A DNA stretch of 64,000 nt from an uncultured Colwellia sp. (GTDB lineage Bacteria; Pseudomonadota; Gammaproteobacteria; Enterobacterales; Alteromonadaceae), in NCBI GenBank assembly GCA_913058145.1, contig CAJXQM010000004.1:1-64000 (forward strand), in the 5' to 3' direction. The translations under genes and the position numbers were made by a program. The notes under the pieces are model-generated. The model was not told the DNA's origin and ran no database searches. It saw only the letters and a program-made list of their open reading frames with translations. Of this stretch, positions 17,370 through 36,481 are shown in pieces (within the stretch, counting starts at the first letter, position 1; each line of letters opens with the position of its first letter).

Positions 17370-18323
17370 TTACTGAACTAACGCGAGTTGTGCGTTGATA
17401 AACGTATCAAATTCATCTGCTGGTGCAATAGCACCTCTGTGTTGTATAACAAAACCGGCTGCTTTTGATGCTAATGTAATTGAATTATTTACAGAGTAAC
17501 CTTCCATACGAGACCCAAGGTAAACACCATTAAACGAGTCACCCGCAGAAGTCGTATCAACCACGTTTGTTACAGGTGTAATTGAAAACTCTGAGATTAT
17601 TCCTTCAACAACGACTAAAACACCTTGCTCACCATTTTTAATGATTAATTCATTTATGCCAAAAGGTTTACAGTAATTGTAAACCTCTTCAACGGTAGTC
17701 ATGCCAAATAATTGTTCAAAGTCATCAACGCCAGGAAGCGATATGTCTGATTTATGTAACGCTAACTCAAACTGTTGCTGGGCTTCTTTAGGGCTACTCC
17801 ACATTCGAGGACGATAGTTAGGATCAAATACAACTTGGATCCCTGAAGCTTTTAATTTATCAATTAAAGTCCAAAACTTTTCTCTTGAATCTGGTTCAAT
17901 TACCGCCAAAGAAATACCTGAAAAGAAAAACATATCACCTGTTGATAATTGGCTAATAACTTCATCATCAATATGTTGCATTATTTGACGAGCGGCTGAG
18001 TTTTCCCGCCAGTATGTAAAACTACGCTCTCCTTGTTCATCAAGTTGAATAGAGTACAAGCCCGGAATTCTTGTTTCTGATTGAAAAACAAAATCAGAAC
18101 CAATATTTTCATTTTTAAAATATCGGATCATATCGACGCTAAATTGATCCTTCCCGATGGCTGTAACTAACTGTACATTCACATCAGCGAACGTACGTTT
18201 TAGATAAACAGCCGTGTTGAAAACATCTCCGGCAAACGATTGCTTCATTGTATTTGATGACTTTTCTTGTGAAGCCGCCATTAATTCAATCATACACTCA
18301 CCGAATAGAAAAATGTTTTTCAT
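17370..18323 (-). CDS. kdgK: 2-dehydro-3-deoxygluconokinase (PfkB family)
   Basis: PfkB signature DTTSAGDSFNGVYLG, next to eda. Confidence 0.92.
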   Translation of the reverse strand: MKNIFLFGECMIELMAASQEKSSNTMKQSFAGDVFNTAVYLKRTFADVNVQLVTAIGKDQFSVDMIRYFKNENIGSDFVFQSETRIPGLYSIQLDEQGERSFTYWRENSAARQIMQHIDDEVISQLSTGDMFFFSGISLAVIEPDSREKFWTLIDKLKASGIQVVFDPNYRPRMWSSPKEAQQQFELALHKSDISLPGVDDFEQLFGMTTVEEVYNYCKPFGINELIIKNGEQGVLVVVEGIISEFSITPVTNVVDTTSAGDSFNGVYLGSRMEGYSVNNSITLASKAAGFVIQHRGAIAPADEFDTFINAQLALVQ

Positions 18324-18390: not shown

Positions 18391-19695
18391 CTATTTAGCT
18401 TTAGCCTTCACTGGCTCAACTGTTGGGATAAGAATCCAAACAGCGGCCATAGCAATAACAGCTAAAGAAGCGCCGATTACAAATACAGTCGTGTAATTAC
18501 CATCTGCTGTTAAAATAGGTACTAGAGAAATTAATCCGGCTACAGCAAGTTTAGCTGCCATGCCCGCGAAACCTGCAAGTGTTCCAACAGATTTCTGACT
18601 AAACAAGTCGCTTGGTAGTGTTTGAACATTACCGATAGCAGTTTGAAATCCGAATAAAATAACCGCCATAATCATTACCGCAGTAGTTGGGCCACCAGGA
18701 CTCGACATAGCTAATAAAGATGGCAACATAATTAAACAACCCAAGGTGATAGTTAATTTACGTGTTTTATCTGTATTCCAGCCTGCTTTTAAACGATTTT
18801 GTGCAAGAAGACCACCAAACCAAGCTCCAAACATTGCACCAACATATGGCACCCAGCCATAAATACCAATTGCTTTGACATCCATTCCGTACACTTCATT
18901 AAGGTAAAGAGGAGTCCAAGCAACAAACAGCCACCAAATAGGATCAATGGCTGCAGAAGCAATAATTACTCCCCAGCTCTGTTTATGAGAAAGTAGCTCA
19001 GTTGTTGTAGGAGTATATTCTTCTACGGCTTCGGTAGACTTTGTTGAAACAGAACTTTGTTGACCGGTTAAGATATATTCGCGTTCTTGAGGTGTGATCC
19101 AAGGATGAGTTTTTGGTGGCGATTTAACTAATATGAGCCAAGGAATAAGCCATAATAATCCAATAACACCGATAAGCACAAACACCATTTGCCAGCTGAA
19201 AAATACCGTCATATAAGCTATTAATGGAATTGAGATAATACCGCCGATGGCAGCGCCTGAGTTAAATATACCCTGCGCTAAAGCACGTTCTTTAGTTGGG
19301 AACCAGTCAGCATTACTTTTAGTCGCTCCTGGCCAATTACCCGCTTCTGCTACACCTAAAATTGCACGGAAAATAGCAAAACTAAGTGCACCTTGAGCAA
19401 GTGCATGAAGCGCTGTAGCGATTGACCAAACACCAATAGATAAAACAAAACCTAAACGTGTACCTATCCAGTCAAATATTTTACCAAATATAGCTTGACC
19501 AAAAGCATAAGAGAATACAAAAACAACCGTTATATTCGCATATATTTGCTTACGCTCTAAGGCTGACTCATCGGGAAACAAATCTTCTACGATATCAGGC
19601 CAAAGTACACTAAGTGCTTGACGATCAATATAGTTAATAACGGTGGCTAGTGCTATTAAAGCAATAACCCACCAACGTACACCTTTCAATTGCAT
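18391..19695 (-). CDS. MFS transporter, ACS/hexuronate-type (likely DEH/uronate uptake)
   Basis: INYIDRQALSVLWPDI motif typical of the ExuT-like ACS family, in alginate cluster. Confidence 0.85.
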   Translation of the reverse strand: MQLKGVRWWVIALIALATVINYIDRQALSVLWPDIVEDLFPDESALERKQIYANITVVFVFSYAFGQAIFGKIFDWIGTRLGFVLSIGVWSIATALHALAQGALSFAIFRAILGVAEAGNWPGATKSNADWFPTKERALAQGIFNSGAAIGGIISIPLIAYMTVFFSWQMVFVLIGVIGLLWLIPWLILVKSPPKTHPWITPQEREYILTGQQSSVSTKSTEAVEEYTPTTTELLSHKQSWGVIIASAAIDPIWWLFVAWTPLYLNEVYGMDVKAIGIYGWVPYVGAMFGAWFGGLLAQNRLKAGWNTDKTRKLTITLGCLIMLPSLLAMSSPGGPTTAVMIMAVILFGFQTAIGNVQTLPSDLFSQKSVGTLAGFAGMAAKLAVAGLISLVPILTADGNYTTVFVIGASLAVIAMAAVWILIPTVEPVKAKAK

Positions 19696-20093
19696 TATTT
19701 ACTCTCCGCTGGCTTACTATTAAGTTGCTCTACATCAATATTATTAAATACACCTTCCGGTAAAAAATCTTCACGCGGGGGGCTAAAAGTATCGATTAAA
19801 ATACCACCTGTTGTGCATGTAGCACCATGGTCTGCCCATGGTTGGATCAAACAGCTATCACCTTCTTTCATGATGGTTGTTACGCCATCGATATTAAAGT
19901 GAAACTCTCCTTTAACAACGTAAGTCACTTGAGAATGTCTGTGTGCGTGGCTGTATCCAATAGCACCTTTTTCAAAATAAATTTTAACAGCCATTAACTC
20001 ATGGTTATAACCTAACATTTGACGTTTTAAACCGCCGCCAATGTCTTCGATTTCTGCTTCATCTACCGATGTAAAAATTTTACTCTGACTCAT
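19695..20093 (-). CDS. kdgF: Cupin protein KdgF (unsaturated uronate linearisation)
   Basis: Small cupin, HAHRHSQVTYVVKGEFHF, cluster context. Confidence 0.8.
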   Translation of the reverse strand: MSQSKIFTSVDEAEIEDIGGGLKRQMLGYNHELMAVKIYFEKGAIGYSHAHRHSQVTYVVKGEFHFNIDGVTTIMKEGDSCLIQPWADHGATCTTGGILIDTFSPPREDFLPEGVFNNIDVEQLNSKPAESK

Positions 20094-20102
20094 AATTGAT
20101 TC

Positions 20103-22367
20103 CTATGCTTTAATTTTGAACAATTTAAAACGGCCATCAAATTGATATGTCGAGCCATTAAATATAAAGGAGTTTGATTGATTACTTTTAATATTTTCAG
20201 CTGAGTTAAAAGCTAACAAATAAGATATATTTCCTTCAAACCGAATTTCTACTACATCAATATTTTCAGCTTTGTGATGTGATAGTTTTTGAATTTTACT
20301 GACCGCCGATACGGTAAACTCTTTTGAGGGGTTATATTCACCATGTGGCTCTAACACACTAACAAAGGTATGATTTTTAGACTTTGTTTTACGGTTAATA
20401 AACGCATTTTCATTACGTAGATTAAACAAGGGATCGTTCGCGCCAATTTGGGTGAAAATCAATGATGTTTCACCATCCATAATGGAAGAGTTGGTATAAA
20501 ATCGGCCATTATCATTCAACCACGTAATTTGAGATAAACCCGCTTTAGGTTGTGCTTGTGCTTTCAACCATAAATGCTGATAACCATTCTCTTTACCTAA
20601 TACCGGTAAACTGGTTAATTGTGTATCTAGCTCAAAACTAGTGCTAATTAAGTGACCTTTATAGTGCACAGGTAAATCATACTGATGTTTGTCTTTTGAC
20701 GTTGCCTCAAACACGTCAACAACGAATGACTGCTCTTCACCCGACTTTTTCATTGGTAGTTTAATCAAGGCCAGCGTACGTTTTAACGAAACGCCTTTAT
20801 AAGCGCTATCAATACTTGCTGAACTGATAGTGATATTTTCATCTTTTTCAAAAAATAATAATTCAGGATGATTCGCATTGCCCTTTTTAACGCTGGCATT
20901 AAAGTGCGTTTTCTCATCTACAACAACGGTGTTGTGCGCTATCGTTTGTTTTGCCCACGTGCTATTTTCAGGTAAATAACGACCACCATATTTAGCTTCT
21001 ACATTTAAAAATCTAGCAGCGCCATAGTCGGAAACTATTTCTTCACCTCTGTCGTAAAACTGCCACGTTAGTTTATCAAAATGACCATGACCTAAACCTT
21101 GCGCTGCAGGCTTAAATAGCACGGCTTGTTCACCACCTACATTCTGACGCATGATAACTAACGCACCTTGCTTACCGTCATTTCCATCACCAAAGGCAAC
21201 AGACTTAAACTCATAAGGTTGCTCTAGCTTTTTATCAAGGGCTTGAGCAACTTTTAAACCATCACCCGTTAATAAAATTTGATTTTGTTGTTTGGCAATA
21301 TCGAGTAAGCCAGCATGTTTTGTTAAACCATAAGCAACGGCAACACCGTTAACTAATTCAATCGTATCGATTCCCTTACTTTTAATGGCATCATTAATAG
21401 GAAAGAACAATTTGTTATAGCTTAATTGTATTGTCGCATCGATTGCTTTTAAGACAATGCCATCGCGATATTCAAATATTTTACGTGTCGGTTGATTGGT
21501 TTGAATGGCCTTAGCAAACGTAACAAATGGCAATAACGCAAAACGTTGATAATAAGGACCTTCGTTATAATAACCTTGTGGAGAAAACAGCTCATCTAAC
21601 TGTATTAAAAAGCCACCTTTACCTGATTTATCTAAACCATAAAGTGCCTGCTCCACCCAGTCCAATTCACCTAATACATAACCTGTCATGCCTACAGCAG
21701 CAGTTGTCCATGTACCATGATTATGCACTTTATTGAATGTTTCAGGAGAGTCTACTGATAAAAACTTTACAATGGGGCGAAATAAGCCGTTCTCGATTTT
21801 TTCTTTTTCTGCTGCATTCAACGAAGATAAAATCAAATCGTAAGCTTGGCTGGTATACACCAACCACATCGCTTCGTTTAAGCTTTGCCAAAATAATTTA
21901 CCCGGGTTTTGTTTACCCATTTTTCTTTTTGGATGTAAAGGCAAGGTAGGGTAAAGATCTGCATAGGTAAGTAGCATGTCACGTACATAGCTAGCATAAT
22001 TAGCATCTTGGGTTAATTGATACATCATGCCCGCATCGTACATTAACTTATAATTTTTCTTGTGACGCTCATGAGTGTAGCCACCGCCGCCATCTTTTGG
22101 CATTGGTACAGTAATAGCTTGTGCTATTTGTTTATCAACCGATGCCTTATTAGCGATAAAAGTACGTTTGAATTGTCCCTCTTGCTTTATCGCGCTGCGC
22201 ATACTTACCACGTCAGCAGCCGTTTCAACAAGGTTAGGACTCGTACTTGCCATCGCTATTTGATTACCCCCTACAGAAGAAAGAATAACAATCGCGATAG
22301 TCGACAACCATCTTTTCGATAATGGTAACACCGAGGATAAACATAACGTTTTATTAAAAAAATTCAT
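20103..22367 (-). CDS. PL17-type oligoalginate lyase (heparinase II/III-like), secreted
   Basis: Signal peptide; NHGTWTTAAVGMTGYVLGE, YNEGPYYQRFALLPF and GHGHFDKLTWQFYDRGEEIVSDYGAARF motifs. Confidence 0.88.
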   Translation of the reverse strand: MNFFNKTLCLSSVLPLSKRWLSTIAIVILSSVGGNQIAMASTSPNLVETAADVVSMRSAIKQEGQFKRTFIANKASVDKQIAQAITVPMPKDGGGGYTHERHKKNYKLMYDAGMMYQLTQDANYASYVRDMLLTYADLYPTLPLHPKRKMGKQNPGKLFWQSLNEAMWLVYTSQAYDLILSSLNAAEKEKIENGLFRPIVKFLSVDSPETFNKVHNHGTWTTAAVGMTGYVLGELDWVEQALYGLDKSGKGGFLIQLDELFSPQGYYNEGPYYQRFALLPFVTFAKAIQTNQPTRKIFEYRDGIVLKAIDATIQLSYNKLFFPINDAIKSKGIDTIELVNGVAVAYGLTKHAGLLDIAKQQNQILLTGDGLKVAQALDKKLEQPYEFKSVAFGDGNDGKQGALVIMRQNVGGEQAVLFKPAAQGLGHGHFDKLTWQFYDRGEEIVSDYGAARFLNVEAKYGGRYLPENSTWAKQTIAHNTVVVDEKTHFNASVKKGNANHPELLFFEKDENITISSASIDSAYKGVSLKRTLALIKLPMKKSGEEQSFVVDVFEATSKDKHQYDLPVHYKGHLISTSFELDTQLTSLPVLGKENGYQHLWLKAQAQPKAGLSQITWLNDNGRFYTNSSIMDGETSLIFTQIGANDPLFNLRNENAFINRKTKSKNHTFVSVLEPHGEYNPSKEFTVSAVSKIQKLSHHKAENIDVVEIRFEGNISYLLAFNSAENIKSNQSNSFIFNGSTYQFDGRFKLFKIKA

Positions 22368-22380
22368 AAAATAGCTCTTA

Positions 22381-24648
22381 TTAAAATTGCTTGTTATTTA
22401 ATAGCACAGCAGTATGTGGACCTTTAGCATGTAACTCTTTCACACTAGGCGCTGCAGTTTTGTTAAACGTGTTATTTTGTACGACCGTTTTAGGCTCGCC
22501 AACGGTATGTTCAATGTCAATTAATCCACTTTTAACAAATGTATTACTGTCGATAGTAGAGACTTGAACACCATGCAAGGAAATTACAGACTTAGATTTA
22601 TTGCGTTTACCATTACCTACGTTATTCACCGTGTTGTCTTTTAAAAGTATATGAGGGCCAAATGTACTTTCGTCTGAGCCTCCACGATATAAGTTAACTA
22701 ACATCCCCTCAACATTTCTAAAGGTGTTATTAATTATATTTAGGTACTCAACGTTATAAATACCTAAATCATCAATTTCTTTGTTTAGTCTAAAAATATC
22801 ACCTGTAATATTTTCGAAAACATTATTTTCAACGTCAATAGACTGTGCAAATGCTCGACTACCTGAATCTAAAAAGTGGAAAGAATGGTTAACATTTAGA
22901 TCTTTAATCACACTATTTTTCATGGCAAAACGGTAATTTTTAAACATACCCCATTTAGCCGTTCTAACAAAGGTATTACCTGAATAGTCAGCGCTGCTTT
23001 TACCGCTAACCACAACACCATCAATACTTAAGCTGCCACCGTTATTAATTTCAAATAAAGTTGAACGACCAAACTCTAAGGTTACCTGATGACGATTTTT
23101 AGCGTTAATTGACACTGTTTTATCCAGCTTAACAATTTTATCTATGCTGTAATTCCCATCGTCTAACACTAAGATATCACCTGAATTTGCTTGCTTAATC
23201 GCTTTATACAGAGATTCACCACCGGCTTGAACTACCGTTGATTTTCCTGAATCAAAGGCAACGTCCGGCTCTGCCTTGGTATACCAGGCTGTACCTGTTT
23301 GATTTTTTTGTGTTGGCTGAAGCTCTTTTGATACACCTACACCGCTAATATCAGACGTTGGATATAACAAACCATTCGCTGCTCGCTTTAATATGAGATT
23401 TTTCTCTGTTATACCTGAAGAAATTTTATTATCAGTAAGCTTATTTGAAAGATTATCTGAGAAGGTAATACCACTAATGTCGTCAAAAACTGAGAAAGGT
23501 GCTTTACTATTTTCATTAAAAAATAAATTATTGTTAATGACACTACTTTTAGGAACTGCTGATCGTTCAGCATCACTCCCTGCGGCTAAATGAACATGGT
23601 CAATATTAATAAGGCTATTATTTTCAATTTTTGCATTAACAACTTGATGATAACGATTAATACTAGAATTTGGCACGCCATTCATAATAGTTAAACCACT
23701 ACCAAAACGGTATCCAGTTAACCCTTCTAAATAATTATTACGTACTATTTGGTCACGATTGATTACACGAATACCGCCGGTATGATCTACGCCATTACCA
23801 AAAAACACGTTGTTTTCAATACGATTACCATTACCATGGCGAAGTGTTAACGTTCCTCGAGATTCGAAAAAGGTATTGTTGATAATATTATTTTTACCTG
23901 ATTTAACAGATACAATTTCAACTTCACCGTTACAACGATCAAAGTAGTTATTCTCTACGGTCGTAAAAGAATTTGTTAATGAATGATGGCTTGTACCTAT
24001 GCGTAATGTCTCACCACCATTTGAACCGAATATAGGTCGTGGGCCAAAATAGTTATGATCAATTCTATGATGATTCTCTTGGCTATCTTCTGTTGTAAGT
24101 CTAACGGCAAGTGTAACGCCTTTATTGCGTTTACCCACTAAATGATTATGATCAAAGCGATTATGTTGACCATAAATACCCACCCAATAATCTGATTCAA
24201 AACGGTCTGGGTTACTAAAATTATCAATCACAACTTCGGTGATTCGAGAATAAAAAGCTAATTCAGTTTTGTTTTTTCTAAACGAGATAACTTCACTACT
24301 TGGTGTATAACCTTCTTTAAAGACAAGCCCAGAAACTACTAAATACTTTCCGGCTAGCCGTAAATTAGATTGCCCTGTAAGGAAAACTTTGCCTTTATTT
24401 TCTGCGGTGAGTGTTATCGGATTTTCTTTCGTACCTTCCGCTTCAAATAGAATTTCAAAATTATTCCATGTGCCGTTAGCTAGAACAATTTTGTCACCTG
24501 ACTTTACTTTTTTAAGTACATTTTGATAGGATTTAGGAGTGTTAACCAACCAGTCTTTTGCCGTAACTTGGCCAGATAATAACAAAGCAAACACTGATAA
24601 TGTTAGCGCTCTGACGTAGTGTGTAGTTTTAATTGGGTACATTAACAT
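22381..24648 (-). CDS. PL6-type alginate lyase (chondroitinase-B-like), secreted
   Basis: Signal peptide; parallel beta-helix repeats, NGGETLRIGTS, NNYFDRCNGEVEIVSVKSG, LRHGNGNRIENNVFFGNG. Confidence 0.9.
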   Translation of the reverse strand: MLMYPIKTTHYVRALTLSVFALLLSGQVTAKDWLVNTPKSYQNVLKKVKSGDKIVLANGTWNNFEILFEAEGTKENPITLTAENKGKVFLTGQSNLRLAGKYLVVSGLVFKEGYTPSSEVISFRKNKTELAFYSRITEVVIDNFSNPDRFESDYWVGIYGQHNRFDHNHLVGKRNKGVTLAVRLTTEDSQENHHRIDHNYFGPRPIFGSNGGETLRIGTSHHSLTNSFTTVENNYFDRCNGEVEIVSVKSGKNNIINNTFFESRGTLTLRHGNGNRIENNVFFGNGVDHTGGIRVINRDQIVRNNYLEGLTGYRFGSGLTIMNGVPNSSINRYHQVVNAKIENNSLINIDHVHLAAGSDAERSAVPKSSVINNNLFFNENSKAPFSVFDDISGITFSDNLSNKLTDNKISSGITEKNLILKRAANGLLYPTSDISGVGVSKELQPTQKNQTGTAWYTKAEPDVAFDSGKSTVVQAGGESLYKAIKQANSGDILVLDDGNYSIDKIVKLDKTVSINAKNRHQVTLEFGRSTLFEINNGGSLSIDGVVVSGKSSADYSGNTFVRTAKWGMFKNYRFAMKNSVIKDLNVNHSFHFLDSGSRAFAQSIDVENNVFENITGDIFRLNKEIDDLGIYNVEYLNIINNTFRNVEGMLVNLYRGGSDESTFGPHILLKDNTVNNVGNGKRNKSKSVISLHGVQVSTIDSNTFVKSGLIDIEHTVGEPKTVVQNNTFNKTAAPSVKELHAKGPHTAVLLNNKQF

Positions 24649-24958: not shown

Positions 24959-25738
24959 ATGTTTTTTTATACTATTCAAAGCAGAGGAAGTAATATGAGC
25001 AGCAACCGTAGACTGTTTTGGAGCATTGTAGATAAAATAGAGGCTTTAATTGATTCAGGACTCTACTCACCTGGCAGTCGCTTACCACCAGAAAGGGAAT
25101 TAGCAGAAACGTTTAATGTTAGTAGGCCCACTGTACGCGAAGCTATAATAGCACTTGAGGTTCGGGAAAAAATAGAAGTTAAAACGGGATCAGGGGTTTA
25201 TGTTCTAGAACCAGTTAACAAACTAAACTCACAAAGTAAGGTTAATGCTTTTGAAGTAACACAAGCTCGCGCATTAATCGAAGGAGAAGTTGCCGCACTT
25301 GCCGCAACAACCATCACTAAGGATGAGTTATCGTGTTTATATCAAACGTTAGTTGATATGGAAAACAACCATTTTATTGCTGCAGCAGACAAAGAGTTTC
25401 ATCAAATCATAGCTAACGCTACCCGAAATAGTGCAATGATATTAACGGTAGAGAACCTTTGGAAACTTCGTTCTTCTACTCCTGAAATAATTAATGATTA
25501 TGATAGTGTATGTAGTAAAGACGGTTCAAAAACGATTGCAGAGCATAAAGCCATCTATCAAGCGTTAGAGTCTGGAGATGCTACACAAGCTAGAAGTGCG
25601 ATGCATAGCCACTTTAATAGGTTGATAAACGCCTTGTTTGATGCCGTAGAAACTAGATCTCTAGAGGAAATCAGACGAAAACATAACGAAAAACGTGGAC
25701 TTTATTCTATTCCTAATTCTGCCAAACTTAGCCCCTAG
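24959..25738 (+). CDS. GntR-family (FadR subfamily) regulator; start probably 24995
   Basis: wHTH SRLPPERELAETFNVSRPTVREAIIALE, FCD-type C-terminal domain; divergent from alginate operon. Confidence 0.9.
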   Translation: MFFYTIQSRGSNMSSNRRLFWSIVDKIEALIDSGLYSPGSRLPPERELAETFNVSRPTVREAIIALEVREKIEVKTGSGVYVLEPVNKLNSQSKVNAFEVTQARALIEGEVAALAATTITKDELSCLYQTLVDMENNHFIAAADKEFHQIIANATRNSAMILTVENLWKLRSSTPEIINDYDSVCSKDGSKTIAEHKAIYQALESGDATQARSAMHSHFNRLINALFDAVETRSLEEIRRKHNEKRGLYSIPNSAKLSP

Positions 25739-26098: not shown

Positions 26099-26983
26099 CT
26101 ACTTTTCTAATTTAGCATTAAAGTAATCAAAAATTACGGGGACGTCATTCTGACCAAGACCCGCATCAACAGCAGCTTGTAGGTTAGCAGAAGTACCCTG
26201 AGCAATTAAAGACTCACCACCTAAATCGGCAACCATTTGGTTAAAATAACCAAGATCTTTGTTTGCGTTAGCAACAGAGAAACCTAATTTTTCTTCACCG
26301 TCTACAGCATAAAACTTAGTAAACTGCATGAATGGTGAGTTAGATGGACCCGCTGACATGATGTCGAATAATTGCTGGCCATCAACACCAGCAGCTTTCG
26401 CCACAGCAAATGCTTGTGACATAGCAGTAACCGTTGTCATACCAATGAAGTTATTGATTAACTTAGTTGTGTGGCCAGCACCAAGTGCGCCAAGGTGAAA
26501 TACGTTTTCGCCTTGCTCATCAAGAACTGGCTTAACTTTGTTGAACGTATCAATATTACCGGCAGCCATAATGTTTAATAAACCATCTTTGGCGTGTGCA
26601 GGAGTACGACCTAACGGAGCGTCAATCATGCCAGCGCCTTTAGCGGCTAGGTCAGCACCTATCTTACGTGTAGAATCTGGAATAGAAGTACCAAAATCAA
26701 TTAATGTTTTGCCTTCTGTCATACCCGCTAAGATACCGTCTTCAGCATAAACGACTAATTCAACTACTGTTGAAGTAGTCAGGGCCAACATTACGATATC
26801 ACTTTTTTCAGCTAATTCTTTACCTGAGCTAACTTCAGTAGCGTTGCCACGAGCGATAACTTTTGCAACAGCATCTTTATTAAGATCCATTACGTTTACT
26901 TGAAAACCACGAGTTTGGAGGTTTTCAACCATGTTGCCGCCCATAAGACCAAGGCCAATGAAACCTATAATCGGTTTTGTCAT
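26099..26983 (-). CDS. NAD(P)-dependent 3-hydroxyisobutyrate dehydrogenase-family oxidoreductase (candidate DEH reductase)
   Basis: GFIGLGLMGGNMVENL nucleotide-binding motif, HLGALGAGHTTKLINN; alginate cluster context. Confidence 0.8.
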   Translation of the reverse strand: MTKPIIGFIGLGLMGGNMVENLQTRGFQVNVMDLNKDAVAKVIARGNATEVSSGKELAEKSDIVMLALTTSTVVELVVYAEDGILAGMTEGKTLIDFGTSIPDSTRKIGADLAAKGAGMIDAPLGRTPAHAKDGLLNIMAAGNIDTFNKVKPVLDEQGENVFHLGALGAGHTTKLINNFIGMTTVTAMSQAFAVAKAAGVDGQQLFDIMSAGPSNSPFMQFTKFYAVDGEEKLGFSVANANKDLGYFNQMVADLGGESLIAQGTSANLQAAVDAGLGQNDVPVIFDYFNAKLEK

Positions 26984-27488: not shown

Positions 27489-28682
27489 CTAAATGCTACT
27501 GAGTCCCTTAATAACACCTCTAATTTCGGCCAACCCTTTCAAGCGGCCAATACAAGAATAGCCAGGATTACCCTGTTTATTGATGTCGTCTAAAATTTGG
27601 TGACCATGATCAGGTCTAATAAATATTTCGTGGTTAGTTTGTGTTTTATCGCGCGATTTTTCTTCCTTTAATAACGCAGAAATGACCCCTACCATATCAA
27701 CGTCGCTTGATAGATGCTCTGCCTCATAAAATGAGCGTTGTTCATTTTTATCTCTACTAACGCCACGTAAGTGAGCAAAATAAATACGGGACCCGTATTT
27801 TTTAGCCATTACGGGTAAGTTATTATCTGGACGACTACCATAGGTTCCCGCACATAAAGTAATGCCGTTAGCGGGGCTTGGTAGTGCAGAAAATAGAATG
27901 TCTAAATCTTGTGATGTACAAATAATACGTGGTAAACCTAACATATCTCTTGGTGGATCATCGGGGTGAATAGCTAACTTAACGCCTAAGAGTTCAGCTT
28001 TAGGTAAAACTTGTGATAAAAAAGAAAATAAATTTTTTCTTAAAATATCTTTAGTAATATCTTTGTAATTTGCCAACATACTTCGAAAGTTATCAATAGT
28101 ATAAGCATCGGTCATTTTCCCTGGTAAACCCGCGATGATATTTTTCGTTAATAACGCTTGCTCCTCTTCAGACATAGCTGAAAAAGTTGCTTTGGCTTGC
28201 CTTAATTCTTCATCAGAATAATCAGCTTCAGCATTTTCACGCTGTAATATAAATAAATCAAAAGCAGCAAATTTTTGTTGGTCAAATCTTAATGCATAAG
28301 CGCCATTGGGTAATTGAAATTTTAGATCCGTACGAGTCCAATCTATGACTGGCATAAAGTTATAACAAATCGTTTTAATTCCACATTTTGCTAAGTTTTC
28401 CATTGAGGCAATCCAAGCTTCCACATAGCGTTGATTATTTTCGCGCCCTAACTTGATATCTTCATGCACAGGAATACTTTCAACAACAGACCAAATAAGA
28501 GGAGATTTAATCTCATTGTCTATTTCAATTAACGCTTTATAGGCCTGAATTTGATCTATAGGCCATACTTCACCGGTAGGTATCGTGTGTAAAGCACTAA
28601 CGATATCGGTAGCGCCTGTTTGTCTAACGTCGGCAATTGATACTGGGTCATTGGGACCAAACCATCTCCAAGCTTCACGCAT
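27489..28682 (-). CDS. uxuA: Mannonate dehydratase
   Basis: MREAWRWFGPNDPVSIADVRQTGATDIVSALHTIPTGEVW and HPDDPPRDMLGLPRI motifs. Confidence 0.95.
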   Translation of the reverse strand: MREAWRWFGPNDPVSIADVRQTGATDIVSALHTIPTGEVWPIDQIQAYKALIEIDNEIKSPLIWSVVESIPVHEDIKLGRENNQRYVEAWIASMENLAKCGIKTICYNFMPVIDWTRTDLKFQLPNGAYALRFDQQKFAAFDLFILQRENAEADYSDEELRQAKATFSAMSEEEQALLTKNIIAGLPGKMTDAYTIDNFRSMLANYKDITKDILRKNLFSFLSQVLPKAELLGVKLAIHPDDPPRDMLGLPRIICTSQDLDILFSALPSPANGITLCAGTYGSRPDNNLPVMAKKYGSRIYFAHLRGVSRDKNEQRSFYEAEHLSSDVDMVGVISALLKEEKSRDKTQTNHEIFIRPDHGHQILDDINKQGNPGYSCIGRLKGLAEIRGVIKGLSSI

Positions 28683-28723: not shown

Positions 28724-29809
28724 TTATTTAACTGCAGGTGGGTAACACTCAAGAATTTCAACGCCTAACTCTGTTTTTATGGTTGCCACATCAACGCCCG
28801 CCGGGCAGAAGAAGCGATCGAATTTTTTAAGCTGAATAATTTCCTCTCCAACATTAATACTGCACTCGCCAGTAACAACAATACCGATGTAAAAGTCTTT
28901 TTCTCTCTTCTCAACAGTTCCAGAAATAGTCGACTTTTTCACTCTAAACTTGTCGGTAATAGTTTCATTAATTAAGGTTTCTTGAAATGAAGTATCACTG
29001 TAGTGATGCTCAACTTTTGGTTGCTGATAAAATTTCTCAATTGCTTCTGATACCGATATTTGTGAGAAATCGAAGACATCCATACAAAAATCAAGGTCGC
29101 GCTTCATAAAACGTGCTTCTTCAGGCATGGTATAGCCGGCTTTAGTAAATTCAAATCGTACCGCCCAGTCAGAAGGCTCCATAATTTCTACCATCAAAAT
29201 CCCTTCCCCAATGGCATGAGGCGATCCACCGGGTATAAACAAGCAATCACCCGCTTTAACAGGAACTTTCTCAAAACATGCTTCTATTGCGCTAATATTT
29301 TGAGTTTCTATCATTTTCTTAAACGCACTGCGTGATGGTGGATGTTGAAATCCTACATAAACGTAGGGATCTGTAGTGCCTTCACGGACATCTAAAATGT
29401 AATAACCTTCTGCCTTACCGTGATTACTGTTGAGATGCTCACGAGCAAACTCAGCAGATGGGTGTGCCTGAAAATGCAAGCGAACAGAGGAGTCTAAAAA
29501 CTTCACAAGCAGCATTGGATTAAAATCAAAAGCTTTTATATGTTCCTCGCCCAGAAAGTAACTTGGATCTAAAGCAATTAATTGATCAAAACGGATAGTT
29601 TCATCACCGACGACAGCGTGTGAAATTCCTTCCACTATATGCTCTCTGTCAGGATTGACGGCTTGTGTCGTCGAGCCAATCCAATCTTCAGGAAAATGAG
29701 TATCTTGAGGTACTGATTTTTGCTCTAACTCATCAAGAATTTTACCACCTGTGTAGGTACGCCATACACGGTTTGGGGTAAAACAAATAAGTTTGTTTTT
29801 GTAGTTCAT
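28724..29809 (-). CDS. Class I mannose-6-phosphate isomerase-like cupin protein
   Basis: Conserved metal-ligand motifs QAHPS, GKAEGYYIL, IPGGSPHAIGEG. Confidence 0.8.
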   Translation of the reverse strand: MNYKNKLICFTPNRVWRTYTGGKILDELEQKSVPQDTHFPEDWIGSTTQAVNPDREHIVEGISHAVVGDETIRFDQLIALDPSYFLGEEHIKAFDFNPMLLVKFLDSSVRLHFQAHPSAEFAREHLNSNHGKAEGYYILDVREGTTDPYVYVGFQHPPSRSAFKKMIETQNISAIEACFEKVPVKAGDCLFIPGGSPHAIGEGILMVEIMEPSDWAVRFEFTKAGYTMPEEARFMKRDLDFCMDVFDFSQISVSEAIEKFYQQPKVEHHYSDTSFQETLINETITDKFRVKKSTISGTVEKREKDFYIGIVVTGECSINVGEEIIQLKKFDRFFCPAGVDVATIKTELGVEILECYPPAVK

Positions 29810-29894: not shown

Positions 29895-31136
29895 TCAGAG
29901 AGCTTGTAATGTAGTCATAATACCGTTGTAGCTCATATAACTCATGATCAAGGAAAATACGAATATCATCGATAATATAATATTGGTCATTTTTGAGAAT
30001 TTATGTTCTCCCATTAGGCTTTTGATATTACCTATATAGAAAATACAGGCTACAGTCGCAGGTAACAGCAAAGCGCCAAATGCCTGAGAACCAACCATTA
30101 TCGCAATAGGTTTGGCGTTAAAAATCGGCACAATTAGCCCTAGAGAGGATATTACCAAAGCCATAATTCGATAGCTCGGTCTCTTCAAATTGGGTTTTCG
30201 CTGGTGAAAATCGTCAAGCAACCAGGGAAGTAATGCCACATTGGGAAACTGAGAAGACACGCCAGCTGCTATCAATCCAATAGTAAAAATTGCCACAGCA
30301 GCAGAGCCCGCCAAGGGTTCTAGCAAGTAAATCATTTGAGTCACGTTAACTAACGTAATCCCCTGAACGAACAAAGATCCTGCGGCGGCTGCCATTATAG
30401 CAGTGCTAACAATAAACATCAGAAAGGCTGAAAAAAGCGCATCTCTATTTTGGGTCTTTAGGTCAATTAAGGTCCAACCGGCTTCTTTAACAAGGATGGT
30501 TCGTAAGATGAACAGGCCTGAAAAAACTGTGGTACCCACCATAGATGCAATCACCAAAAATGAATTTTTATCGGCGCTGGTATCGGGAACATTGGGGACC
30601 ATGCCTTTCAAAATTTCCATCGCAGGAGGCATCAAAATAATAAAGTTAATTAAAAAGCACACAGACATGATGGCGACAAAAATGGCCAACACCTTTTCAA
30701 ATACTTCCGTTCTTCCAATCAGAAAAATGACATAGACAAAGGTGATGAAGAATAGTGCAAAATAGAGTGGCGATATACCGCCGTCGATAAAGTTCTTAGA
30801 CCATTCATAACAAACATCAGCTAAAATTCCCATTACACCAATGACACTTCCACATATTTGCGTGGTAAGCGCTACTATGAAAAATATAGCAACGGCCGGA
30901 TGTATATGCTTCCGAAAAGATTGCAGCGCAGTCTGGCCTGTTACCAACGTAAACTTACCAAATAAATTAATTAAAAAATAAGTGATGGCACAGGAAATAA
31001 AGATAGTCCATAGCAACGACATGCCATAATCTGCTCCCGCTTTTGCCATGGCGGTAACACTACCAGTACCAACAGTGAAGCCAAACAAAAATATTCCAGG
31101 AAGTAGAGACTTAAAAAACGTCTTAATGTTATTCAT
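29895..31136 (-). CDS. Nramp-fold transporter lacking canonical metal-binding motifs
   Basis: Overall Nramp-like TM pattern, but TM1 DPGN is replaced by GTGS and TM6 MPH by FSG (manual alignment to MntH from memory). Confidence 0.75.
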   Translation of the reverse strand: MNNIKTFFKSLLPGIFLFGFTVGTGSVTAMAKAGADYGMSLLWTIFISCAITYFLINLFGKFTLVTGQTALQSFRKHIHPAVAIFFIVALTTQICGSVIGVMGILADVCYEWSKNFIDGGISPLYFALFFITFVYVIFLIGRTEVFEKVLAIFVAIMSVCFLINFIILMPPAMEILKGMVPNVPDTSADKNSFLVIASMVGTTVFSGLFILRTILVKEAGWTLIDLKTQNRDALFSAFLMFIVSTAIMAAAAGSLFVQGITLVNVTQMIYLLEPLAGSAAVAIFTIGLIAAGVSSQFPNVALLPWLLDDFHQRKPNLKRPSYRIMALVISSLGLIVPIFNAKPIAIMVGSQAFGALLLPATVACIFYIGNIKSLMGEHKFSKMTNIILSMIFVFSLIMSYMSYNGIMTTLQAL

Positions 31137-31711: not shown

Positions 31712-34700
31712 ATGAATCGAAATTTATCTAAAATAACCTTAGCCGTGTTGTCAGCAACATCGCTCAATTTTGCAGCATCGGCATATGCAGCAGATGCTAA
31801 AGTACAGGCAGAAGAAGAAGTTGAAGTAATTCAGGTGACCGGTTTGAGAGGTTCACTTACCAGTGCACTTGCCGAAAAACGTGATACAGCCAATCTGATT
31901 GAAGTAATTAATGCGATTGATATTGGTAAATTACCGGATCAAAATTTAGCTGAAGTGCTTGAGAATGTTACTGGGGTTCAAATAACCAGAACAGCAGGTA
32001 TTGGTACCGGCGTACAAATCCGTGGTAGTAACGCTAACCTTGTTCAAATTAACGGTGCGTCTACTGTAGGCTCTGGTGCCGGACGCACTGGTATGAATTT
32101 TGAAGATCTTTCAGCTGGTATCATTGCTGGCGTTGAAGTCACCAAGGCTCCAACAGCCAAAAATACCGAAGGTTCTGTTGGTGGTACCATAAACTTACGT
32201 ACTATTCGTCCGCTTGAATTGTCAGATACATTAGGTTCTTTGCGTGTACAAGGTGAAGATAGTAGCCTGACAACAGATGGTGTTCAACCAAGAATATCTG
32301 GCGCATACGGTGATAATTGGGAACTTGATTCTGGTGGTAAATTCGGTTTTGTTGTTAGCGGAAGCCACACTAAACAAGAAGCGACTTCATTCCGCCCTCG
32401 TGTTGACCGTGACGGTAGCCTAGTTGAAAATGTTAACGCTGTTGTTGTTAGAAACGGAGTGACAGAAGATCAGGCGATTAAACGACCTGCTGCACAAAGC
32501 TTTGATTTTCTTGGTATTCAATTCCTGAATCAAGAGTTAGAGAATTTTGAATATGAAACGACAAATGTCGCTACTTCATTTGAATTTGCACCAAATGATA
32601 ATTTGAAATTTTTTGCTGATGTTATTGTTACTAAACAAGAGCGTCGTCAGGAGAGTACCCGTGTGCAAGCATCTGGTGTTGGTAGTGTACTAAACCATAC
32701 AGTACCTGATACATTTGAAACAATTAATTTTGGTGCACTTGACGGTGTACAGCTAGGCAGTATACAGGCAGCGTTAACGGGTAGAATTACCCCTATGCTA
32801 AGTGTTGATGATGATGATCCTAACCTACGTTTCAATAGTGATACAGGTGCACGTGAAACTGATACACATTTATTTAGATTAGGTGGTGAATGGCAAGGTG
32901 ACAACCTAACAGTAAGTGTAGAGCTGTCAAGTGCAGGCTCTGATACTTCAACACCAAAGTTAGACACACAATTAAACTTTATTAACCCTAACCCTCTTAC
33001 TCCAGTTGATGGTTCTAGTAATGACAACAGTGTCCCATTTATTTATGACTTAACGGGCGAATCTCTAACATTTGGTATAGATTTTGACTCTCCATTCGCA
33101 CCAACTGTCGATCAATTAACTGATCTTTCTGGTGCAAATGTTGTATTGGATCAAGTAGATTTAAATCGCAGTACAACCGAAAACTCTGATGATGCATTCC
33201 GTACTGATTTCACGTACTTTATTGATGATAATATTATAACGTCTGTAGATTTTGGTTATCGCTATAACAAAACTAAACACAGTGCAATTTCGATAAACGA
33301 TCGTATTGGCGGTTTTAGTAAGATGATAGATAGTCCAAATGGTGCTTTATTTTCAGAGCTTCTTGTTGCAGGCCCAAGCCACTTTGGTGATGCAGATGGT
33401 AGAGAATTAGCGCTTCGTAATTTCCTTATTATAAATCCAGATCTTGCGTACAATGACCCTGACGGGGTATTAAGTGTATTGGAAGCTGCGATGGTAACTC
33501 ATAGAGCAGAGCAGGAAGCACTAGGAGTGACCTTTGGTAAGGATTTAGATTTTTCATCCCTTAGTCCTTCAGATACGGCTGCCTTTAATATCGAAGAAAA
33601 GTCGCATGCGTTATATGCCCAAGTAAATTTTGAATATGAAATGATCCGCGGTAATTTTGGTGTACGTCATGTATCAACGGATATTACCTCAAAAGCTAAC
33701 TCTGTTGTCTCTGGTGAAGTAATACCAGTGTCTGACGAGGCTGATTATAGTTTCACACTACCTCGTTTGAATTTAGTTGCCGACGTAACTGACGATATTG
33801 TTGTTCGTTTAGGCTGGGGTAAAGATATTAAGCGTCCTAATTTTGGCGACTTAGATTCTTCCGTATCCTATGGTACTAACGAAAACCAGGCCGTAAAACT
33901 TGGTAACCCAAGCTTAGAACCAGAAGAAGTTACCTCATTTGATATTTCAGCTGAATGGTATTTTGCAGAAGCGGCAGTAGTCAGTATAGGTTATTTCAAA
34001 AAAGAGCGTAGCAGCTTACATGTTACGTCTTTAGATAGTGCTACAACGTTGGCCAACGATTGGTCTGAACCTGGTCCTACATGTTCTTCAGGTATATATA
34101 ACCCTTCGGTACAGCCTAATGCGATAGGAGATCCCAATACTGAGGGCTTATGTGTTGACCGTGAATCAAAATTCAATGATTCTTCAACCACGACTCAATC
34201 AGGTATAGAAATGGCATTTCAGTATGACCTTTCAAGCTTTGAAGAAGACTTAGGTTGGGCCTCAGGTTTTGGTGTAGTTGCTAACTATACTAAGCAAAAG
34301 TTTGAAGGTGGTTCAGCTTTTTACTCCTCATCATCGACGCGTGGTACAGATGTTCTTAATGCGATAAACGGTATTTATGATAATAGTAACTGGGTGACGG
34401 TTACATCGGAACGTGGCTTGCTTGACTTCTCGGAAGATGCATACAATGTTGCTGTGTACTATGAGAAATATGGTCTTTCGGCAAGATTACGTTATACATG
34501 GCGTGATGCTTACCGTACGGAGGACACTGCTGCAGGTGCTAGCCTTAACTCTACATTAGGTTTCCCTGTTACGACACATGACAGAGGTCAGCTTAATGCG
34601 AGTGTAAGTTATGACGTTAATGACAATTTAAATCTTGGCATTGAAGCGGTTAACTTAACTGAGTCAGACATTATTCAATCTTGTGTGAATGAAGGTGCTA

Positions 34701-34762
34701 TGCAATGTGCTCAAGGTATTACAGATAGACGTATTACCTTTGGTGCTAGCTACCGTTTCTAG
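31712..34762 (+). CDS. TonB-dependent receptor
   Basis: Signal peptide; plug domain (LPDQNLAEVLENVTGVQITR) and C-terminal beta-barrel ending in RRITFGASYRF. Confidence 0.93.
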   Translation: MNRNLSKITLAVLSATSLNFAASAYAADAKVQAEEEVEVIQVTGLRGSLTSALAEKRDTANLIEVINAIDIGKLPDQNLAEVLENVTGVQITRTAGIGTGVQIRGSNANLVQINGASTVGSGAGRTGMNFEDLSAGIIAGVEVTKAPTAKNTEGSVGGTINLRTIRPLELSDTLGSLRVQGEDSSLTTDGVQPRISGAYGDNWELDSGGKFGFVVSGSHTKQEATSFRPRVDRDGSLVENVNAVVVRNGVTEDQAIKRPAAQSFDFLGIQFLNQELENFEYETTNVATSFEFAPNDNLKFFADVIVTKQERRQESTRVQASGVGSVLNHTVPDTFETINFGALDGVQLGSIQAALTGRITPMLSVDDDDPNLRFNSDTGARETDTHLFRLGGEWQGDNLTVSVELSSAGSDTSTPKLDTQLNFINPNPLTPVDGSSNDNSVPFIYDLTGESLTFGIDFDSPFAPTVDQLTDLSGANVVLDQVDLNRSTTENSDDAFRTDFTYFIDDNIITSVDFGYRYNKTKHSAISINDRIGGFSKMIDSPNGALFSELLVAGPSHFGDADGRELALRNFLIINPDLAYNDPDGVLSVLEAAMVTHRAEQEALGVTFGKDLDFSSLSPSDTAAFNIEEKSHALYAQVNFEYEMIRGNFGVRHVSTDITSKANSVVSGEVIPVSDEADYSFTLPRLNLVADVTDDIVVRLGWGKDIKRPNFGDLDSSVSYGTNENQAVKLGNPSLEPEEVTSFDISAEWYFAEAAVVSIGYFKKERSSLHVTSLDSATTLANDWSEPGPTCSSGIYNPSVQPNAIGDPNTEGLCVDRESKFNDSSTTTQSGIEMAFQYDLSSFEEDLGWASGFGVVANYTKQKFEGGSAFYSSSSTRGTDVLNAINGIYDNSNWVTVTSERGLLDFSEDAYNVAVYYEKYGLSARLRYTWRDAYRTEDTAAGASLNSTLGFPVTTHDRGQLNASVSYDVNDNLNLGIEAVNLTESDIIQSCVNEGAMQCAQGITDRRITFGASYRF

Positions 34763-34999: not shown

Positions 35000-36481
35000 A
35001 TGAACTTACCTCTAAAACAACTGAATTTATCTCAACTAGCCGATACTCCAAAAATTTCCACATCAGAATATGATAGAGAAAAGATAGATATTGGTATTGT
35101 TCATCTTGGCCCCGGTGCTTTTCATCGCGCTCATCAGGCTGTTTATACCGAAACTGCAATGAATTTATCTGGTGGAGACTGGGGGATTTGTGGTGTTTCG
35201 TTACGCAGTACAACCGCACGAGATATTTTAGTAGAGCAAGATAATTTATACACATTAGCCATTTTAGATAAGAAAGTTAGTTATCAAATTATTGGTGCCA
35301 TAAAAGAAGTGTTAGTTGCCAGCGAACAAAGCAATGAGGTTATTGCTCGTATGGCGGCTGCGAGCACAAAACTTGTTACCTTAACTATTACCGAAAAAGG
35401 CTATTGTTTAGCCTCTGACGGCTCCTTGGATTTAAATCATAAGGATATTAAGCATGATTTAGCCAACCCAACGAGCCCAGTCAGTGCCATTGGTTTCATC
35501 ACAGAATCACTTAAGCAAAGAAAGCTAAAGGGTATTAATGCCTTTAATGTGCTCAGTTGTGATAATGTTTCTGGCAATGGTGAAAAACTGCGCCGCGCTG
35601 TTTTAGATTACGCAGGACAGTTTGATATCAACCTGCAAGAATGGATAGATAAAAATGTCGCCTTTCCAAATTCAATGGTTGATAGTATTACCCCTAAAAC
35701 TGAAAGCTATACCATTGAGTCCGTATCAAAAGCTATTCATTTACAAGATAACTGGCCAATACAAAGGGAAGAGTTTACGCAATGGGTTATCGATAACAAC
35801 TGGCAAGGTGAACGCCCTGATTGGGAAAAGGTAGGTGTTATATTTACCGATGACGTAGAAGGGTTTGAGAAAGCAAAGTTAAGATTACTTAACTGCTTGC
35901 ATTCAACATTGGCCTACGCAGGTTCACTCGCCGGTTATGAAACTGTATTTGATGTCACTAGCGATAAATATTTTTATCAATTTATTTCTAAGTTGGCTTC
36001 TGATGAAATTATTGGCTCATTTGTTCCACCAAAAGAATTAGATGTGAAATCCTATAGTCATGATATTATTCAGCGTTTTTTAAACCCTAATATCCGTCAT
36101 TTATTAGCGCAAATAGCTTTTGATGGTTCGCAAAAAATACAAATGAGAATATTGCCAACAATTGAAGATAACATAGCGTTAGGGCGATCTACTAAGCTGC
36201 TTTCTTTATCGTTAGTTTGCTGGTTTGAATTTATTTGCTGTGCGTTAAAAGAAGGTAAAGAAATTATTGACCCTATGGCAAACACTTTTGCTAATATACC
36301 AAAATTACTCAGTAATGACGTACTTGAAGTCGTTGAAGCTTTTTTAAGTATTGAATCAATTTTTAGTCAGGCATTGAAAAATAACATCCCATTAAAGGCT
36401 CAATTAGTAAAAAGTTTAATCGCATTACGTCTTAGTGACGTTAAGAAAATAAATGTTCTCATAGAGACGTTATATGAGTAA
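35000..36481 (+). CDS. uxuB: Fructuronate reductase/mannitol dehydrogenase family protein
   Basis: VHLGPGAFHRAHQA and CDNVSGNGEKLRRAV and PNSMVDSITP motifs; uxuA nearby. Confidence 0.88.
   Translation: MNLPLKQLNLSQLADTPKISTSEYDREKIDIGIVHLGPGAFHRAHQAVYTETAMNLSGGDWGICGVSLRSTTARDILVEQDNLYTLAILDKKVSYQIIGAIKEVLVASEQSNEVIARMAAASTKLVTLTITEKGYCLASDGSLDLNHKDIKHDLANPTSPVSAIGFITESLKQRKLKGINAFNVLSCDNVSGNGEKLRRAVLDYAGQFDINLQEWIDKNVAFPNSMVDSITPKTESYTIESVSKAIHLQDNWPIQREEFTQWVIDNNWQGERPDWEKVGVIFTDDVEGFEKAKLRLLNCLHSTLAYAGSLAGYETVFDVTSDKYFYQFISKLASDEIIGSFVPPKELDVKSYSHDIIQRFLNPNIRHLLAQIAFDGSQKIQMRILPTIEDNIALGRSTKLLSLSLVCWFEFICCALKEGKEIIDPMANTFANIPKLLSNDVLEVVEAFLSIESIFSQALKNNIPLKAQLVKSLIALRLSDVKKINVLIETLYE

Follow-up and report, generated by a model that had tools for sequence, protein, structure and literature searches.

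Alginate, a major brown-algal polysaccharide, consists of mannuronate and guluronate and contains no glucuronate. Its catabolism is drawn via the unsaturated monomer DEH, and lyase action leaves a saturated residue at what was the non-reducing end of the chain. The described DEH pathway (KdgF, DehR, KdgK, and Eda) accepts only the unsaturated monomer. On saturated di- and trisaccharides (MMM), PL17 enzymes liberate saturated M (PMC12336832). The alginate schemes of PMC7874173 and PMC8778563 name no step for saturated mannuronate, and our literature search for a mannuronate isomerase found no gene assigned to the use of saturated mannuronate.

Here, we describe a cupin protein whose closest described relatives are the type I phosphomannose isomerases (PMIs) of B. 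subtilis (ManA, 1qwr) and A. fulgidus (1zx5), with which it shares the two-cupin fold, the metal ligands, the catalytic Lys/Arg, and, by prediction, the C1-C2 aldose-ketose chemistry. It differs from both in sequence (approximately 20% identity), in an R-x-Y insertion, in a Ser-to-His replacement, and in scoring under the manA cut-off, and from type I PMIs generally in being found with uxuA/uxuB and alginate genes rather than mannose genes. UxaC (PF02614), an amidohydrolase TIM barrel with glucuronate and galacturonate as substrates, is unrelated in fold but resembles the PMI-like cupin in its predicted product, D-fructuronate, in its place within uxuAB clusters, and in the near mutual exclusion of the two among UxuA-bearing relatives. 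KduI (PF04962), a ketol-isomerase of uronate catabolism, is likewise of the cupin type but belongs to a different family and acts on a 5-keto sugar derived from unsaturated uronates.

A PMI-like cupin in an alginate locus

The window, a 64,000-nucleotide stretch of DNA from an uncultured Colwellia sp., carries the genes listed in Table 1. A sequence-only reading had placed the PMI-like gene between uxuA and a transporter gene; this arrangement was recovered, with gaps of 41 bp on the downstream and 85 bp on the upstream side, and the locus also includes uxuB, PL6, PL17, KdgF, DehR, and KdgK, on which that reading was silent. The genes on the minus strand are ordered, in the direction of transcription, NRAMP-like transporter, PMI-like cupin, and UxuA, followed by DehR, PL6, PL17, KdgF, MFS, and KdgK-like genes, with the regulator, the TonB receptor, and UxuB encoded on the opposite strand. 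The DehR is of the A-type described in PMC7874173. The locus holds the classical DEH branch plus a uxuB-uxuA branch that requires fructuronate, the two sharing KDG as an intermediate.

Table 1. Features of the PMI-like cupin locus; coordinates are those of the window
Feature	Coordinates	Strand	Basis
PMI-like cupin, predicted D-mannuronate/D-fructuronate ketol-isomerase	28724..29809	-	ORF, profiles, model, alignment
UxuA, mannonate dehydratase	27489..28682	-	TIGR00695, 514 bits (cut-off 200); adjoins PMI-like gene downstream
NRAMP-fold transporter, candidate uronate permease; TM1 GTGS	29895..31136	-	PF01566; motif alignment
UxuB-like fructuronate reductase / mannonate oxidoreductase	35000..36481	+	Best NCBIfam PRK15037, E = 3e-105, under its cut-off
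3-Hydroxyisobutyrate-dehydrogenase-like, A-type DehR (DEH reductase)	26099..26983	-	PF03446/PF14833
GntR/FCD regulator, ExuR/UxuR-like	24959..25738	+	Best NCBIfam ExuR and UxuR, under cut-off
PL6-type alginate lyase (Chondroitinase B fold)	22381..24648	-	PF14592
PL17-type oligoalginate lyase	20103..22367	-	NF042990, E = 1e-250, under its cut-off; PF05426, PF07940
KdgF-like cupin	19695..20093	-	Sequence and position in locus; weak library match only
MFS sugar-acid permease	18391..19695	-	TIGR00893, galactonate-transporter-like, under cut-off
KdgK-like sugar kinase (PfkB)	17370..18323	-	PF00294
TonB-dependent receptor	31712..34762	+	ORF; cluster common to many PMI-like loci

We consider it probable that the PMI-like cupin, with its type I PMI fold, acts as a metal-dependent ketol-isomerase that feeds UxuB and UxuA, its substrate having shifted from mannose 6-phosphate to unphosphorylated D-mannuronate. 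Alginate lyases convert chain residues to DEH; the exception is the residue at the former non-reducing end, which stays saturated and is set free as a monomer, D-mannuronate. The PMI-like cupin would isomerize D-mannuronate to D-fructuronate, UxuB would reduce the latter to D-mannonate, and UxuA would dehydrate D-mannonate to KDG, joining the DEH branch (KdgF, DehR, and KdgK). Fructuronate is well supported as the predicted product, and we infer with moderate confidence that mannuronate, rather than glucuronate, is the substrate. From C1 to C3, mannuronate has the configuration of mannose, including that at C2, where glucuronate differs, so that a PMI would only have to recognize a C6 carboxylate in place of the C6 phosphate. 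Counting against this role, a long alginate chain offers few saturated ends, so that a dedicated gene has to pay on short chains. If correct, the assignment would fill a gap in the use of saturated mannuronate from alginate, correct a family now represented most closely by the mannose-6-phosphate isomerase model, supply a tool for alginate biorefining, and give a clear example of recruitment of a phospho-sugar isomerase for use on a free sugar acid.

Fold, pocket, and relation to canonical PMIs

The gene is an open frame starting with ATG and encoding 361 aa, and all of the PMI metal-ligand motifs named from sequence alone are present in its product (QAHPS, residues 114-118; GKAEGYYIL, 131-139; GGSPHAIGEG, 194-203). 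The only NCBIfam match is manA (TIGR00218; E = 2e-21, 76.4 bits, under the curated cut-off of 116.2), and the Pfam models scoring over cut-off are limited to the C-terminal MPI cupin and general cupin models, with PF20511 (PMI_typeI_cat) scoring under it. Profile search recovered B. subtilis ManA 1qwr at E = 1e-19. An AF2 model built from 65 sequences reached a pLDDT of 95, an 11-sequence version being weak in the N-terminal region, and the 17 solved structures nearest to the model are all PMIs, including 1qwr (TMt 0.81) and 1zx5 (TMt 0.85), with which it shares the two-cupin PMI fold. The PMI-like identity first suggested by the motifs is borne out by the TIGR00218 homology, the 1qwr profile match, and the structural neighbors, and the protein is confirmed as a real but diverged type I PMI homolog.

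A family scan using one genome per species yielded 129 relatives, and the best 80 of 129, which were retained, come from Marinomonas, Vibrio, Psychromonas, Alteromonadaceae, Colwellia, Verrucomicrobiota, and Planctomycetota and, farther off, Lentisphaerota and Clostridia. In a tree that included 17 canonical ManA sequences and was rooted at the midpoint only, with long stems, a branch with 97/98 support set all 80 sequences apart from the canonical ManA clade. Residues E41, K103, Q114, H116, K132, E134, H198, E208, and R218 are identical in the PMI-like cupin and both canonical PMI types; among them, the metal ligands (Q114, H116, E134, and H198) and the catalytic K132 and R218 are common to the family and all canonical sequences. 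The comparison with the ManA phosphate-binding residues proposed in the sequence-only reading revealed a different pocket. Two residues before the ligand Gln, canonical PMIs invariably (16/16) have the Ser of the LSxQxHP motif, presumably a phosphate contact, whereas 18 of 19 PMI-like proteins have His (His112) at this position. Furthermore, R17 and Y19 (R-x-Y) lie within a 4-residue insertion, absent from all canonical PMIs compared, ahead of a conserved GG. The alignment suggests that the family keeps the residues of isomerase chemistry while its pocket is altered family-wide, and the carboxylate might conceivably be recognized by His112, Arg17, or Tyr19.

The conserved fold and metal site, together with manA being the sole NCBIfam match, would also suit recruitment of a typical mannose-6-phosphate isomerase to the locus, a reading that we regard as extremely improbable given the score under the manA cut-off, the replaced Ser, and the genomic setting. 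The window's own genome (G000; 3.0 Mb, 97% complete) encodes a full ManC/AlgA-type PMI-GMP on a contig other than that of the PMI-like gene (G000:C8:42788), followed by a phosphomannomutase-like ORF (identity by eye), and a search for a second type I PMI in this genome found none. The PMI-like cupin was considered as the only PMI of the genome and rejected, settling the question of a separate enzyme raised by the sequence-only reading. Because ManC is present, GDP-mannose supply has no need of the PMI-like cupin, which is not a housekeeping ManA. Canonical ManA also scores over cut-off in 11 of 51 genomes with PMI-like genes. The families most often recurring around PMI-like genes at 81 loci are UxuA (35), UxuB (33), NRAMP-like (32), TonB receptor (TBDT; 31), FadR (20), and PL17 (17); no mannose or GDP-mannose family is among those that recur.

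Relation to UxaC and exchange within the operon

Neither UxaC (PF02614) nor KduI (PF04962) was found in the 97% complete genome, and neither profile matches the PMI-like cupin itself; supply of the isomerase step by UxaC or KduI encoded elsewhere in that genome was rejected. The PMI-like gene, UxaC, and UxuA were searched for in the same 198 related genomes. Among the 31 with UxuA, the PMI-like gene occurs in 8 of 10 lacking UxaC and in 1 of 21 possessing it (G129; Fisher p = 4.7e-5, the genomes not being independent), and three genera (g1, g6, and g62) each contain both UxaC-bearing and UxaC-less members. Where a genome has UxaC, this gene often occupies the corresponding position in the uxuAB cluster, next to UxuA, UxuB, FadR, and TRAP genes, and no UxaC was found inside the PMI-like loci.

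This near exclusion and the shared operon place could also be read as non-homologous substitution of UxaC in the same reaction, D-glucuronate to D-fructuronate, the alginate neighbors then reflecting general uronate loci. Alginate genes, however, define a context without glucuronate: PL6, PL7, PL17, or KdgF is present in 25 of 51 gammaproteobacterial PMI-like loci versus 0 of 18 UxuA loci from genomes with UxaC (p = 1e-4). In addition, PMI chemistry retains the mannose C2 configuration, which glucuronate lacks, and UxaC co-occurs with the PMI-like gene in 24 of 50 wider genomes, a coexistence that fits two substrates better than two enzymes for one. We therefore consider action on glucuronate unlikely. 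The proposal from the sequence-only reading that the PMI-like cupin fills the step normally performed by UxaC gains support, by association and residue change, from the absence of UxaC in the window's genome, the replacement pattern, and the alginate lyase neighbors, although the cupin is not a strict replacement of UxaC. Two genomes (G048 and G088) have both the PMI-like gene and UxaC but no UxuA, and would need another mannonate dehydratase if the proposed pathway operates there.

Comparison with Colwellia polaris, which has the same NRAMP, PMI-like, and UxuA gene order, revealed an exchange within the operon. UxuA, NRAMP, DehR, and UxuB of the window are 88%, 89%, 96%, and 79% identical to their C. 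polaris counterparts, versus 50% for the PMI-like cupin, which is 85% identical to Marinomonas proteins and nested among them in the tree. The resident PMI-like gene has been exchanged for a distant ortholog in an operon that is otherwise native and undisturbed, implying that the two subtypes serve the same function there.

Transporter and variant loci

Metal-transporting NRAMPs carry DPGN in TM1 and MPH in TM6. The NRAMP-fold protein of the window has GTGS in TM1 and FSGL in the TM6 MPH region, with conserved Arg and Lys after it, and GTGS is kept in 36 of 38 aligned NRAMP-like proteins; a canonical metal-transporting NRAMP was sought for comparison, and the top-scoring relative (L164) was itself divergent. 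From these motifs, the protein likely carries a sugar acid rather than a metal. Tentatively, and with less confidence than in the isomerase itself, we suggest that the operon may constitute a complete module for salvage of saturated mannuronate, in which a metal-site-less NRAMP-fold uronate permease and a PMI-fold D-mannuronate isomerase feed UxuB and UxuA. NRAMP-like relatives also adjoin UxaC and a UxuA-like gene (L161 and L162). In Colwellia maritima (L023, 10676-15899; record shared with L054), the PMI-like gene and UxuA are intact, whereas the genes for the NRAMP protein and the TonB receptor are broken into several ORFs, reflecting either decay or assembly error.

The composition of PMI-like loci varies across the family. 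Marinomonas loci contain the PMI-like gene, usually accompanied by UxuB, UxuA, a regulator, a TRAP transporter, and DehR, an organization suited to scavenging of monomers; lyase genes are missing from the vicinity in these and in several other loci. Beside PL6 and PL7, four Paraglaciecola loci (L059, L061, L064, and L066) encode an additional NRAMP-like protein, an RbsD/FucU-type mutarotase, a gluconokinase, and an SDR, which might form a branch for L-guluronate; L061 belongs to Paraglaciecola sp. 20A4, the strain whose alginate gene cluster is analyzed in PMC7874173.

Verrucomicrobial PMI-like genes are paired with a 2-hydroxyacid dehydrogenase, DUF2264, and an SDR in place of UxuA/UxuB, a possible variant route; the dehydrogenase and, at most of these loci, DUF2264 come after the PMI-like gene. 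Loci of this type (L072, L077, L087, L091, L094, L095, L097, and L099) carry the PMI-like gene, a D-2-hydroxyacid dehydrogenase (PF02826), and DUF2264, which is presumably related to the CAZy GH154 beta-glucuronidases, and mostly also an SDR, a TIM-barrel protein, and a Hepar_II_III (heparinase-like) protein. These partners, the lyase-less loci, the wider coexistence with UxaC, and the UxuA-less G048 and G088 all count against the proposed pathway.

The SDR genes near PMI-like genes in verrucomicrobial and Paraglaciecola loci could point to a KduI-like role, in which DEH would be isomerized to 3-deoxy-2,5-hexodiulosonate and then reduced to KDG by an SDR. DEH shares its C2/C3 configuration with mannuronate, and KduI is missing from the window's genome and from most genomes with PMI-like genes tested. 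Such a role would leave the commonest partners, UxuA and UxuB, and the exclusion of UxaC unexplained, and a direct DEH reductase, DehR, is already encoded in the window and in several Marinomonas loci, making it quite improbable in our estimate.

Isomerization of D-mannuronate would account for the UxuA/UxuB linkage in the branch of the window protein; the same linkage would be unexplained if the cupin epimerized a sugar acid or acted on another free algal-wall aldose (e.g., mannose or lyxose), a reading to which we assign a very low probability. What speaks for this reading is the position of distant members in Clostridia and Lentisphaeria next to a GH42-like protein, and such members may have another substrate. 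This GH42-like protein (c654) adjoins or lies near the PMI-like gene in L101, L102, L108, L109, and L112, and the loci bearing it come from Lentisphaerota, Verrucomicrobiota, Eubacteriales, and Phycisphaeraceae.
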